From an uncultured Mollicutes bacterium (GTDB taxonomy: Bacteria; Bacillota_I; Bacilli_A; RFN20; CAG-826), in assembly GCA_937893635.1 (NCBI GenBank), contig CALBGF010000057.1, forward strand, positions 1 through 13,706: a stretch of DNA of 13,706 nt. The letters run 5' to 3'. Position 1 is the first letter of the stretch. Each line of letters opens with the position of its first letter. The position numbers were made by a program, and so were the translations under genes. Positions 4,916 to 8,448 of this stretch are shown here, one piece after another. The notes beneath the pieces are model-generated. The model was not told the origin of the DNA. It worked only from the letters and a program-made list of their open reading frames with translations, and ran no database searches.

Positions 4916-7339
4916 ATGAATTTTATCGAAAAATTATTTCGTTTTGATCAACGTGCATTGAAAAAAATAAAAAAAGAAAGTGAAAAAGTCATGGCTTATG
5001 AAGGAGAGATGGCAGCTTTATCAGATGATGAATTAAAAGCTAAAACCCCATACTTCAAAGATAGACTTGCTAAAGGTGAAACATTAGAAGATATTAAGTA
5101 CGAAGCTTTTGCAGTAGCAAGAGAAGCAGCAAAAAGAGTTTTAAACCAATTTCCTTTCCAAGTACAAATTGAAGGCGCTTTGGTGTTAAACCAAGGTGAC
5201 GTTGCAGAAATGCGTACTGGTGAAGGTAAAACATTAACCGCTACAATGGCAGTTTACTTAAACGCATTAGAAGGCAAAGGCGTTCATGTTGTAACCGTAA
5301 ACGAATACTTAGCTTCTCGTGATGCTGAGTGGATGGGACAAATTTATCGTTGGTTAGGTTTAACTGTTGGTATTAACTTAAGAGAATTAACAACTTCAGA
5401 AAAACGTGCAGCGTATAATTGCGACATTACTTATACTACAAACTCTGAATTAGGATTTGACTATTTAAGAGATAACATGGCTCAAAGTGTTGATGGCCGT
5501 GTTTTAAGAGGACTACATTTCTGTGTTGTCGATGAAGCTGACTCTATTTTAATTGATGAATCAAGAACACCTTTAATTATTTCTGGTGGCGCTAAGACAC
5601 AATCAAGTGCTTATAAAGCCGCGGACTGGTTTGTTAAGAGTTTAAAGAAAGATCGTGACTATGTCATTGATTTAAAAGATAAGACATGTAACTTAACTGA
5701 CCGTGGTAATGAAAAAGCTCAAATGGCTTTTGGTATTGCTAACCTTTATGAACCTCAATATCAAGATTTAGTTCATAGAATTTATCAAGCATTAAAAGCT
5801 AACTACATCTTTGCTCGTAATGTTGAATATATGGTTGATAGTGAAGGAGAAATTCAACTTATTGACCAATTCACAGGTCGTATCTTAAAAGGTCGTGAAT
5901 ATTCAGATGGTTTACAACAAGCTATTCAAGCTAAAGAAAATGTTAAGATCAAAGAAGAAACTGTGACAATGGCCACAATTACATATCAAAATTTCTTCCG
6001 TCTATATGATAAATGTGCTGGTATGACTGGTACTGCTAAAACTGAAGAAGAAGAATTTAGAAAGATTTATAATATGCGCGTTATTGTTATTCCAACAAAT
6101 AGACCAATTAAACGTGTTGATGCTTTAGATATGATTTTTGCTACTAAAGATGCAAAATTTAAAGCACTTGTAAAAGAAATAAAAGAAAGACATGAAAAAG
6201 GTCAACCAATGCTTATTGGTACTACATCTGTTGAAATGTCTGAATACGTTTCTAACTTGTTAGATAAAGAAGGATTAAAGCATGAAGTTTTAAATGCTAA
6301 AAACCACGCTCGTGAAGCTGAAATTATTAAACACGCCGGTGAAAAAGGCGCAATCACAATTGCCACTAACATGGCTGGTCGTGGTACCGATATTAAGATT
6401 GATGATGAAGTAAAAGCACTTGGTGGATTATGCGTATTTGGTACAGAAAGACATGAATCTCGTCGTATTGATAACCAATTACGTGGTCGTGCTGGTCGTC
6501 AAGGAGATCCAGGTTATTCTTGTTTCTATGTATCATTTGAAGATGATTTAATGGTTAGATTCGTACCTGATAATTTCCGTAAATATTTCTTAAAACTTGG
6601 CGATGAAGCAATTCAAATGTCAATGGCTACGAAAATGATTACTGATGCTCAAACACGTATTGAAGGACAAAACTTTGATACTCGTAAGAGTTTATTAGAT
6701 TATGATGATGTTATGCGTCAACAACGTGAAATTATGTATAAAAAACGTGATAAAGTTTTATTCACTAATGAAATTCACGAAATGATTCAAGACTTCTTTG
6801 AAACAACTGGTAAAGCAATTGCTAAAAAATCTGTACCAGAAGGAAGCAAAGAAGGTTTAATTGATGGTGCAAAATTATATAAATTAGTTACAGAAACGAA
6901 CAAATTATTGCCACCTGATTCATTTAAAGCTTCAGCATTTAATGAAGCGCCTTATGAAGAAGCTGGCGAAGATATTACATTTTTACTAATGAAAGAATAT
7001 AAAAAGAGACGTGATGAATGGGGCGAAGAAGCTGCAAATGCAATCGAAAGACAAATCGCTTTACATTGTATTGACCGTAGTTGGACTAACCACATTGATA
7101 CATTAGCAAGATTACGTGATGGTATTCATTTACGTAGTTACGCTAATATCAATCCATTACAAGATTATGTTAACGAAGGTTTCGAATTATTTAATGAAAT
7201 GCTTGAAACCATTGCTTTAGATGTTGTAGTTCAATTATTAACAGCAAGAATTCAACTTAGACCAGCAGAGCCTCAACCTCAACCTACTGATAAGGTAGAT
7301 GTAGACGCTACAAAGAATTCTGATTCTCAAGGAGAATAA
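4916..7339 (+). CDS. secA: Preprotein translocase motor ATPase SecA
   Basis: This 807-residue cytoplasmic and membrane-associated ATPase drives preproteins through SecYEG. Visible motifs are RTGEGKT (Walker A, 100-106), VVDEAD (Walker B, D206-D209), IDESRTPLIISG just after it, the MTGTAKTEEEEF segment, AGRGTDI, and QLRGRAGRQGDPG (motif VI), followed by the helical scaffold with LDYDDVMRQQRE. The start is supported by GAGGAG nine bases upstream. The C-terminus ends in a short polar tail (PAEPQPQPTD and onward) with no cysteines. The CxCx8CH zinc tail that binds SecB or ribosomes in many bacteria is absent, and the protein is shorter than B. subtilis SecA (841). Its last codons carry the prfB ribosome binding site, and prfB starts four bases after the stop. 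secA-prfB is a common pair in Bacillota. Confidence 0.98.
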   Translation: MNFIEKLFRFDQRALKKIKKESEKVMAYEGEMAALSDDELKAKTPYFKDRLAKGETLEDIKYEAFAVAREAAKRVLNQFPFQVQIEGALVLNQGDVAEMRTGEGKTLTATMAVYLNALEGKGVHVVTVNEYLASRDAEWMGQIYRWLGLTVGINLRELTTSEKRAAYNCDITYTTNSELGFDYLRDNMAQSVDGRVLRGLHFCVVDEADSILIDESRTPLIISGGAKTQSSAYKAADWFVKSLKKDRDYVIDLKDKTCNLTDRGNEKAQMAFGIANLYEPQYQDLVHRIYQALKANYIFARNVEYMVDSEGEIQLIDQFTGRILKGREYSDGLQQAIQAKENVKIKEETVTMATITYQNFFRLYDKCAGMTGTAKTEEEEFRKIYNMRVIVIPTNRPIKRVDALDMIFATKDAKFKALVKEIKERHEKGQPMLIGTTSVEMSEYVSNLLDKEGLKHEVLNAKNHAREAEIIKHAGEKGAITIATNMAGRGTDIKIDDEVKALGGLCVFGTERHESRRIDNQLRGRAGRQGDPGYSCFYVSFEDDLMVRFVPDNFRKYFLKLGDEAIQMSMATKMITDAQTRIEGQNFDTRKSLLDYDDVMRQQREIMYKKRDKVLFTNEIHEMIQDFFETTGKAIAKKSVPEGSKEGLIDGAKLYKLVTETNKLLPPDSFKASAFNEAPYEEAGEDITFLLMKEYKKRRDEWGEEAANAIERQIALHCIDRSWTNHIDTLARLRDGIHLRSYANINPLQDYVNEGFELFNEMLETIALDVVVQLLTARIQLRPAEPQPQPTDKVDVDATKNSDSQGE

Positions 7340-7343
7340 AATA

Positions 7344-8448
7344 ATGCTAGACTTAGTAGCATTGAAAAATGACTTACAAAAAGTCACCCAACAATTTAAT
7401 AAGTTGGGTGACTCTCTTTGACATTAATACACTTTTAAAAAAAGTTCAAGATATTGAAAATCAAATGACTGTTGATGGCTTTTGGGACGACCAAAAACAA
7501 GCAACAAGTATAATGCAAGAACTAAGCGAATATAAAGAAAAGATTGATTTTTACAATGATATTTCTAATTCAATTAATGGTGTAAAAGATTTAATTGAAT
7601 TATGTGATATGGATGAATCATTACTTAACGAAACAAATATAGAATTTGAAAATTTAAAGAAGAAAATGCACAATCTAAATATGATGGTGCTTTTTTCTGG
7701 TGAATTTGACGGAAATAACGCTATTTTAGATTTCCATCCTGGAGCGGGCGGAACTGAAAGCCAAGATTGGGCAGAAATGCTTTATCGTATGTACATTAGA
7801 TGGGCAGAACAAAAACATTTCAAAATGCAAATTCTTGATTATCAACCAGGTGAAGAAGCAGGATTAAAATCTGCTTCCTTAATGATAAAAGGAAAGAATG
7901 CTTATGGTATGTTAAAAGGCGAAAGTGGAGTGCATCGTTTAGTAAGAATATCACCATTTGATGCTTCTGGACGTCGTCATACTTCATTTGCTTCTGTGGA
8001 GGTTATGCCAGAGATTACTGATAACAATGATGTCGAAATACTTGATAAAGATTTAAAAATAGATACTTATCGTTCACAAGGTGCAGGTGGACAAAATGTT
8101 AATAAAACCGAATCTGCGGTACGTATTACTCATATTCCAACGGGAATAATTGTATCTTGCCAAGTCGATCGTTCACAGTTATCGAATAAAGAAATGGCTA
8201 TGAATATGCTAAGAGCTAAACTTTATCAATTACAATTACAAGAAAAACAAAAAGAATTAAATAAACTTCGCGGAGAACAAAAAAATATTGAGTGGGGTTC
8301 ACAAATTCGTTCTTATGTATTTTGCCCTTATACAATGGTTAAAGACTTAAGAACAAACTATCAAGAGGGAGATGTGAGCAAAGTTATGGATGGGCAAATT
8401 GATGGATTTATAGAAGCCTATCTAGAAATGGAGGCAAAAAAACAATGA
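7344..8448 (+). CDS. prfB: Peptide chain release factor 2 (RF2), expressed through a +1 programmed frameshift
   Basis: RF2 recognises UGA and UAA and triggers peptide release. Translation starts at ATG 7344, nine bases after GGAG (7331-7334). It runs 25 codons to an in-frame TGA at 7419-7421. Slippage of the CTT codon (7416-7418) to TTT places GAC (7420-7422) next, and the frame then continues to TGA 8446-8448. The full product is 367 residues, close to the 365 of E. coli. In this numbering the SPF stop-codon recognition motif is at 203-205 and the catalytic GGQ at 248-250. Gln250 is the PrmC methylation site. An ATG at 7369 in the main frame has no Shine-Dalgarno and would give an abnormal N-terminus. 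The gene's own stop is also UGA and overlaps the next start (ATGA). An inverted repeat directly precedes the shift site. Confidence 0.96.
7382..7413 (+). repeat. Perfect 11-bp inverted repeat (RNA hairpin) just upstream of the RF2 frameshift
   Basis: AGTCACCCAAC (7382-7392) and GTTGGGTGACT (7403-7413) are exact reverse complements around a 10-base AT-rich loop. Six of the 11 pairs are G-C, which is rich for this genome. The 3' arm ends two bases before the shift codon CTT. The repeat lies wholly inside the 25-codon leader frame and holds the only SD-like sequence (GGGTGA) near the shift. The sequence after it (CTCTTTGACATT) is not a proper T-run, so a terminator role looks unlikely. Confidence 0.85.
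7416..7422 (+). promoter_or_regulatory. Programmed +1 frameshift site CTT-TGA-C of prfB
   Basis: CTTTGAC is the conserved RF2 recoding heptamer. When RF2 is scarce, slow termination at UGA lets the P-site tRNA-Leu slip from CUU to UUU, making more RF2. The usual AGG-GGG stimulator ending three bases before CTT is missing here. The nearest purine-rich match, GGGTGA, has its GGG run ending seven bases before CTT. Confidence 0.96.

Follow-up and report, generated by a model that had tools for sequence, protein, structure and literature searches.

The question raised by this locus is how the +1 frameshift of a release factor 2 (RF2) gene, prfB, is stimulated when its leader lacks the AGGGGG-like element that usually lies three bases 5' of the shift codon CTT. 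The window, by which the whole analysed stretch of 13,706 nucleotides is meant, carries secA (4916–7339) directly 5' of prfB; all features described here lie on the forward strand. The short zero-frame ORF of prfB (7344–7421) runs from ATG to an in-frame TGA over 25 sense codons (MLDLVALKNDLQKVTQQFNKLGDSL) and is preceded by an ordinary initiation Shine–Dalgarno (SD) sequence, GGAG at 7331–7334; such ordinary initiation SDs were seen before several genes of the window. The shift site CTT TGA C occupies 7416–7422 (CTT at 7416–7418, TGA at 7419–7421, C at 7422), and the main frame, reached by a +1 shift with GAC at 7420, covers 7420–8448. Its product was assigned to prfB with the NCBIfam model TIGR00020 (505.9 bits; cutoff 370). 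With its early in-frame TGA and its main frame in +1, the gene is, as judged from its reading frames, one whose RF2 needs the shift at CTT TGA C, a site that was also found in the relatives. The short zero frame, the CTT TGA C site and the location of RF2 in the +1 frame are shared with the canonical prfB shift of the E. coli type, and the spacer codon UCU of the window is also common at canonical sites according to one source (PMC13245932). Unlike in the canonical case, no AGGGGG stands three bases before CTT in the window, whose leader has a conserved intramolecular hairpin that stops two bases short of CTT.

The 5' arm of this hairpin, AGTCACCCAAC, was located at 7382–7392 (−34 to −24 from the C of CTT), the 10-nt loop at 7393–7402 and the 3' arm, GTTGGGTGACT, at 7403–7413 (−13 to −3). 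The arms are perfectly complementary over 11 bp, and two bases (7414–7415) separate them from CTT. With a calculated stability of −17.3 to −18.0 kcal/mol, the structure is a stable stem directly 5' of the shift site. Folding of the 101-nt region gave −22.9 kcal/mol, versus −11.4 ± 2.8 kcal/mol for 200 dinucleotide shuffles (z −4.2, 0/200 as low), and a z of −5.0 was obtained for the window leader against synonymous-codon shuffles (0/300 as low). The perfect 11-bp stem two bases before CTT, which had been claimed in a sequence-only reading of this DNA, was borne out by its coordinates, its complementarity and these z-scores. By itself, a perfect inverted repeat of 11 nt is no rarity in a window so rich in A and T, where others of 12 and 10 nt, likewise perfect, were found; the hairpin at 7382–7413 is notable among the repeats because of its position, its G+C content and its conservation. 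A perfect 12-nt inverted repeat consisting of A and T only lies within prfB itself (7566–7602, TAATTCAATTAA/TTAATTGAATTA). An intrinsic terminator or attenuator was rejected as the identity of the hairpin: the stem is followed by CTCTTTGAC with no U run, and no terminator-like site was returned for 7250–7550 by a scan with a loop limit of 3–8 nt. A known RNA family was likewise rejected, no Rfam family having reached its gathering score in the window.

Relatives were collected by a scan of species genomes, in which 141 places encoding a relative were found; the best 80 of the 141 were kept. The nearest among these best 80, L001–L003 (genomes G001–G003), encode RF2 proteins with 75–77% identity. 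The genus of G001 (one GTDB genus) was represented by four genomes, G001–G003 and G008 (locus L084), a set chosen by kinship and not by pairing. Membership of the window in this genus is likely, because the window and the four genomes are grouped at 100/100 on the RF2 tree. The hairpin was found in all four genomes in the same register (−34 to −24 with −13 to −3 from the C of CTT). In the ungapped alignment of the window with these four, all 11 pairs are kept (55/55 cells paired); both partners are changed in three pairs (C–G/U–A, A–U/C–G and G–C/A–U), one pair goes from C–G to U–G, and seven are invariant. When the structure was slid by 1–3 columns as a control, 11–36% pairing and no double changes were obtained. 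In L084, GGTGA is destroyed by a substitution (AGTGAC) and the stem is intact. Covariation of the two arms in related prfB leaders, which had been proposed earlier as a check, was therefore present as three double-changed pairs in a kin-defined set, and the view that the hairpin is a conserved RNA under selection, and not a product of chance, is well supported by these sequence comparisons.

A further 120 stretches were taken from the family of G001 (187/196 genomes matched, not all of these among the matches listed). The resulting leader set comprised 235 sequences (the window and 234 loci, many of them fetched twice), of which 213 had a CTTTGAC leader; 165 of the leaders were distinct. The 22 rows dropped from the 235 were L111–L114 (second matches at 39–43% identity, taken as RF1), L044, L047 and L060 (CTTTGAC leader present, FW filter failed), L183, L194, L212 and L232 (CTTTGA followed by T or A), the in-frame genes L056, L064, L068, L075, L077, L216, L218 and L226 (L218 repeats L064, and L226 repeats L075), as well as L190, L203 and L223; the contig of L203 has the same length as that of L047. 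Leaders with at least 10 of the 11 pairs in the window register were assigned to class A, and those with 7/7 pairs of a second hairpin, described below, to class B. Among the 165 distinct leaders, 17 belonged to class A, 47 to class B and 101 to neither, GGTGA being present in 61 of the 101. A scan of 38 registers gave nearly complete stems in 16 leaders at −37 and in 0–2 leaders elsewhere, this first extraction containing some false sites; after cleaning, 17 class A leaders were found at register −37.

Thirteen of the 17 class A leaders were represented on the RF2 protein tree (91 rows), where they occupy four places with other rows between them: the window group, L041 with L100, the L020 group, and L036. 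L224, L151, L173 and L178 are absent from the tree and were placed by leader similarity. Outside the nearest genus, the class A register (10 or 11 pairs formed) was seen again in three other clades of the family. One old origin with losses is possible; the change count on the RF2 tree compares class A with class B only and is no evidence for separate origins. In the alignment of the 17 leaders (16 distinct rows), 96.6% of the cells were paired, six pairs had double changes, and 22 cells were double-changed versus at most 4 in slid controls, counts that are biased upward because the set was chosen for pairing. A covariance model built from the 17 leaders matched in 43/279 genomes of the order at E ≤ 0.01, the matches ranging from full stems to weak ones; outside the model, L250 (30 loci fetched) has 10/11 pairs in the class A register and strong folding. 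No relatives were found among viral contigs.

Two kinds of relative had been named in advance as evidence against the hairpin. Relatives that keep CTTTGAC without this pairing make up most of the wider family (148/165 distinct leaders lie outside class A), which counts in part against the hairpin, and were not seen in the nearest genus. A normal AGGGGG element was found in none of the distinct leaders: AGGGGG or five close variants occurred at −9 to −4 in 0/165 distinct leaders, and GGGG, GGAGG or AGGAG at −14 to −4 likewise in 0/165. The nearest G-rich element was GGGGA at −9 to −5 in L044, a row dropped by the filter and outside the 165. The hairpin design is not universal in the wider family; outside class A, leaders show either a different hairpin or an SD-like element in a shifted position, and some have no recognisable element at all.

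The reading preferred here, to which a probability of roughly 0.6 is given, is that the 11-bp hairpin serves as the 5' stimulator of the RF2 +1 shift, in place of the strained SD:anti-SD duplex; this stimulatory role is suggested by the comparative evidence. The leader hairpin would be melted by the translating ribosome. As CUU enters the P site, it would re-form from the loop side, behind the E site, where the SD helix would otherwise sit, and its last closing pairs, reaching the first base of the E-site codon UCU, would pull the mRNA 5'-ward or block backward movement. Closing of the hairpin might also help the E-site tRNA to leave, and at low RF2 levels, with UGA decoded slowly, the peptidyl-tRNA would slip from CUU to UUU. 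We infer the stimulation itself, the site of re-forming and the RF2 level as determinant, the last of these by analogy with work on E. coli. Folding of the leader as free RNA gave −4.1 kcal/mol with bases up to −11 free, −11.4 kcal/mol up to −8 and −17.6 kcal/mol up to −3. The calculated fold becomes more stable towards CUU, so that stem closure would release energy as the mRNA moves 5'-ward, if the helix may enter the space of the SD helix. While CUU occupies the P site, a large part of the 3' arm is expected to remain inside the ribosome, and re-forming of the hairpin would need room, since only −4.1 kcal/mol is left when the bases from −10 on are held. The sequence-only reading had already proposed a refolding hairpin as the source of a forward push; selection on the hairpin, the absence of AGGGGG from 165 leaders and the retention of the hairpin in some relatives that have lost the SD-like stretch speak for this idea, whereas the push itself keeps the conditional standing of the steps just described.

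An engineered precedent is available for such an effect. In PMC6321510, a synthetic stable 12-bp hairpin beside the E site is described as stimulating the +1 shift at CUUUGA on E. coli ribosomes, with about 60% of the effect of an SD, and the layout of the window hairpin matches that of this construct. The effect of the synthetic hairpin in vitro was seen only without RF2 and was much smaller with a destabilised stem (PMC6321510). In another system, a hairpin spacing of 2 nt, which is also the spacing in the window, attenuated −1 shifting more than one of 5 nt (PMC3639245). These engineered upstream refolding hairpins (Cho 2013, PMC3639245; Huang 2018, PMC6321510) have in common with the window a stable hairpin beside the E site and upstream of a shift site, CUUUGA being one of the shift sites used. 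They are reporter constructs or derived from a viral attenuator, whereas the element in the window is natural, covarying and part of a cellular gene.

The best-surviving alternative, which is considered unlikely, is that the hairpin was selected for some other reason, such as slowing of early ribosomes, mRNA stability or a protein site, and has no direct effect on the shift. Such roles are possible for structure near a gene start, the link between hairpin and shift is drawn from sequences only, and relatives have a second hairpin at a different distance from CTT. This second hairpin, GTTGNNG/CNNCAAC (−33 to −27 with −18 to −12, 8-nt loop), covaries in another clade of the family. Its test set was chosen by 3' letters only (CT at −12 to −11, GGG or AGG at −9 to −7; 51/165 leaders, 33 of them distinct over the last 40 bases). 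In the 33 distinct leaders, 98.3% of the cells were paired and 29/33 stems were complete, with 20 double-changed cells versus a shuffle mean of 4.1 (0/500 as high). It ends 11 nt before CTT and is mostly followed by TCGGGTCTTCT (for example L093:1445–1491). Against selection for another purpose stand the identical distance of the class A stem to CUU in four groups and the negative outcomes of the terminator and Rfam searches given above. The leader structure also stands out from the rest of prfB: among 79 distinct leaders with full genes, the stretch of 39 nt that precedes CTT was more stable than its synonymous shuffles in 26 leaders at p ≤ 0.05 and in 16 at p ≤ 0.01, versus 2–11 and 0–4 of the 79, respectively, for ten windows of the prfB body. 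Among six distinct in-frame prfB relatives, 0/6 reach 10/11 pairs in the register (3–6 pairs each), a control that is weak because it comprises six sequences only and 1/6 is structured at p ≤ 0.05. These single-frame genes without a shift (L056, L064, L068, L075, L077 and L216; LGDSLDL or a close variant occurs in four) are apparent frameshift losses within the wider group, as far as their sequences indicate.

Slightly less probable is the second possibility raised in the sequence-only reading, namely that the hairpin gates a shifted SD, the stem keeping GGGTGA covered until a leading ribosome has melted it, so that anti-SD stimulation depends on ribosome traffic. GGGTGA (7406–7411) is the only SD-like stretch of the leader and is buried within the 3' arm, with four bases (CTCT) between its edge and CTT. 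It had been described as lying four bases further upstream than usual, which is true in the 16S pairing register, its edge being only one base further than in AGGGGG-NNN-CTT. Its calculated pairing with the anti-SD is usable, −8.1 versus −6.8 kcal/mol for the E. coli element with a 10-nt tail and −9.3 versus −10.7 kcal/mol with a 16-nt tail, and because of this fair calculated pairing there may be an anti-SD contribution in the window. However, GGTGA is missing from 9/17 class A leaders (including L084, L100, L041, L224 and the L020 group), and an intact 16S anti-SD was found in four of the nine hosts (those of L084, L100, L041 and L224). A ribosome at CUU would, moreover, itself just have opened the stem, so that gating would add little. 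The retention of the hairpin where the SD-like stretch has been lost therefore favours the stimulator over gating of SD access. Among 17 relatives searched, 5 (the hosts of L084, L100, L041, L224 and L036) yielded the 16S end GGATCACCTCCTTT in its 16S context and 12 gave no match; the 16S genes of these assemblies may be misbinned, as G090, which is among the five, has two 16S ends that differ from each other. Given an intact GGATCACCTCCTTT in the five hosts, the missing RF2 element there is not explained by loss of the anti-SD.

It is quite improbable that the shift is in fact stimulated by anti-SD pairing, in a shifted and extended register that runs into the E-site codon (GGUGAYUC with 16S GGAUCACC), and that the hairpin is a by-product. 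GGTGA was found just upstream of CTT in 69/165 leaders, and AGGTGA in 15/165, none of the 15 belonging to class A or B and one of them, L067, having a different hairpin. The leaders of L005, L011, L013, L021, L109 and L126 have no strong hairpin and contain AGGTGATTC, whose complementarity to 16S extends as far as the E-site codon; they possibly represent an extended-SD design, and their calculated anti-SD pairing exceeds that of the E. coli element in strength. A by-product would not maintain its pairing through double changes, however, and the calculated anti-SD pairing in L041, L100 and L224 is weak (−2.8 to −3.6 versus −10.7 kcal/mol for E. coli). In addition, GGTGAT encodes the GD of the peptide LGDSLDL, which is exact in 2/6 distinct in-frame prfB relatives (L075, L077) and near-exact in L064 and L068. 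Since shift-free prfB genes keep LGDSLDL, GGTGAT is at least partly protein-coded, and it is therefore not to be taken as a selected SD without a test.

A trade-off between SD and hairpin was considered and not upheld. Among the 91 tree rows, strong SDs were found with any hairpin in 6 and without in 27, and weak SDs with a hairpin in 36 and without in 22; the Spearman coefficient over the 165 leaders, rows that are not independent by kinship, was −0.19 (p 0.014). By independent pairs on the tree the trade-off was not significant, its significance being lost once kinship was taken into account. In whole genomes, AGGGGGNNNCTTTGAC was found in 3/224 of the family (spacers CGC, CTT and TGC; none TCN, unlike all 165 leaders), in 7/296 of the class, 6 of them with a TCN spacer, and in 2/149 of the phylum, counts that give no rate of loss, the denominators being all genomes and not genomes with a shift site. 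Complementarity of the arms as mere chance imposed by the protein sequence, for which the other perfect inverted repeats of the AT-rich window might be cited, is hardly credible, as it is contradicted by the synonymous shuffles (z −5.0, 0/300) and by the compensatory changes in the nearest genus.

Some of the 101 leaders of neither class have other stems, for example L009, L043 and L098. In Holdemania, a genus with cultured species, L052, L054 and L059 have a 7-bp stem, GCCTAAC/GTTAGGC, that ends six bases before CTT; the folding of the in-frame prfB of L068 (uncultured Holdemania) differs from theirs. L034, L048 and L051 have CTTTGAC with neither a hairpin nor appreciable anti-SD pairing (TTAGAGTCGTCT). 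Among the dropped rows, L183, L194, L232 and L212 have CTTTGAT or CTTTGAA instead of CTTTGAC and are, on their sequences, probable RF2 shift sites; in L183 a stem, GCACTAAG/CTTAGTGC, lies just 5' of the shift site.

T4 gene 60 is a long bypass of 50 nt. For its 5' stem-loop, too, re-forming of a hairpin behind the ribosome has been proposed as a motor (PMC5009743). The class A stem differs in its shorter distance to the P codon, which places it in the space of an SD helix; the class B hairpin, which ends 11 nt before CTT, resembles the arrangement in gene 60 more closely. The −1 shift of E. coli dnaX is similar in its upstream SD:anti-SD duplex, whose effect is set by spacing (PMC5009743); it differs in its opposite direction, its slippery run of A and its downstream hairpin (PMC3711429).

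No natural upstream hairpin in prfB was found in a literature search by titles and abstract openings, to which subscription papers may hold exceptions. The earlier claim of a different stimulatory design holds in part: stimulation by a hairpin has an engineered precedent (PMC6321510) and is thus no new idea, whereas natural use of one by prfB seems to be novel. The hairpin is a case of variant RF2 frameshifting and no new kind of recoding.

For the family as a whole, a broader proposal may be put forward tentatively, with somewhat less than an even chance of being right: across this family-level lineage, and perhaps more widely, the classical SD stimulator would have been lost and replaced by interchangeable 5' duplexes, namely a hairpin next to the E site (A), one at the mRNA exit (B), or anti-SD pairing extended as far as the E-site codon. 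RF2 autoregulation would then need only some duplex behind the ribosome, and not a strained anti-SD as such. A natural covarying hairpin in place of the usual stimulator would show that the RF2 stimulator is exchangeable and would be a natural counterpart to the engineered hairpin effect, allowing one to ask whether a duplex as such or anti-SD tension drives the +1 shift. Searches for RF2 sites that require AGGGGG could then miss whole lineages, and a recoding switch that is among the best known may have more than one mode of operation.
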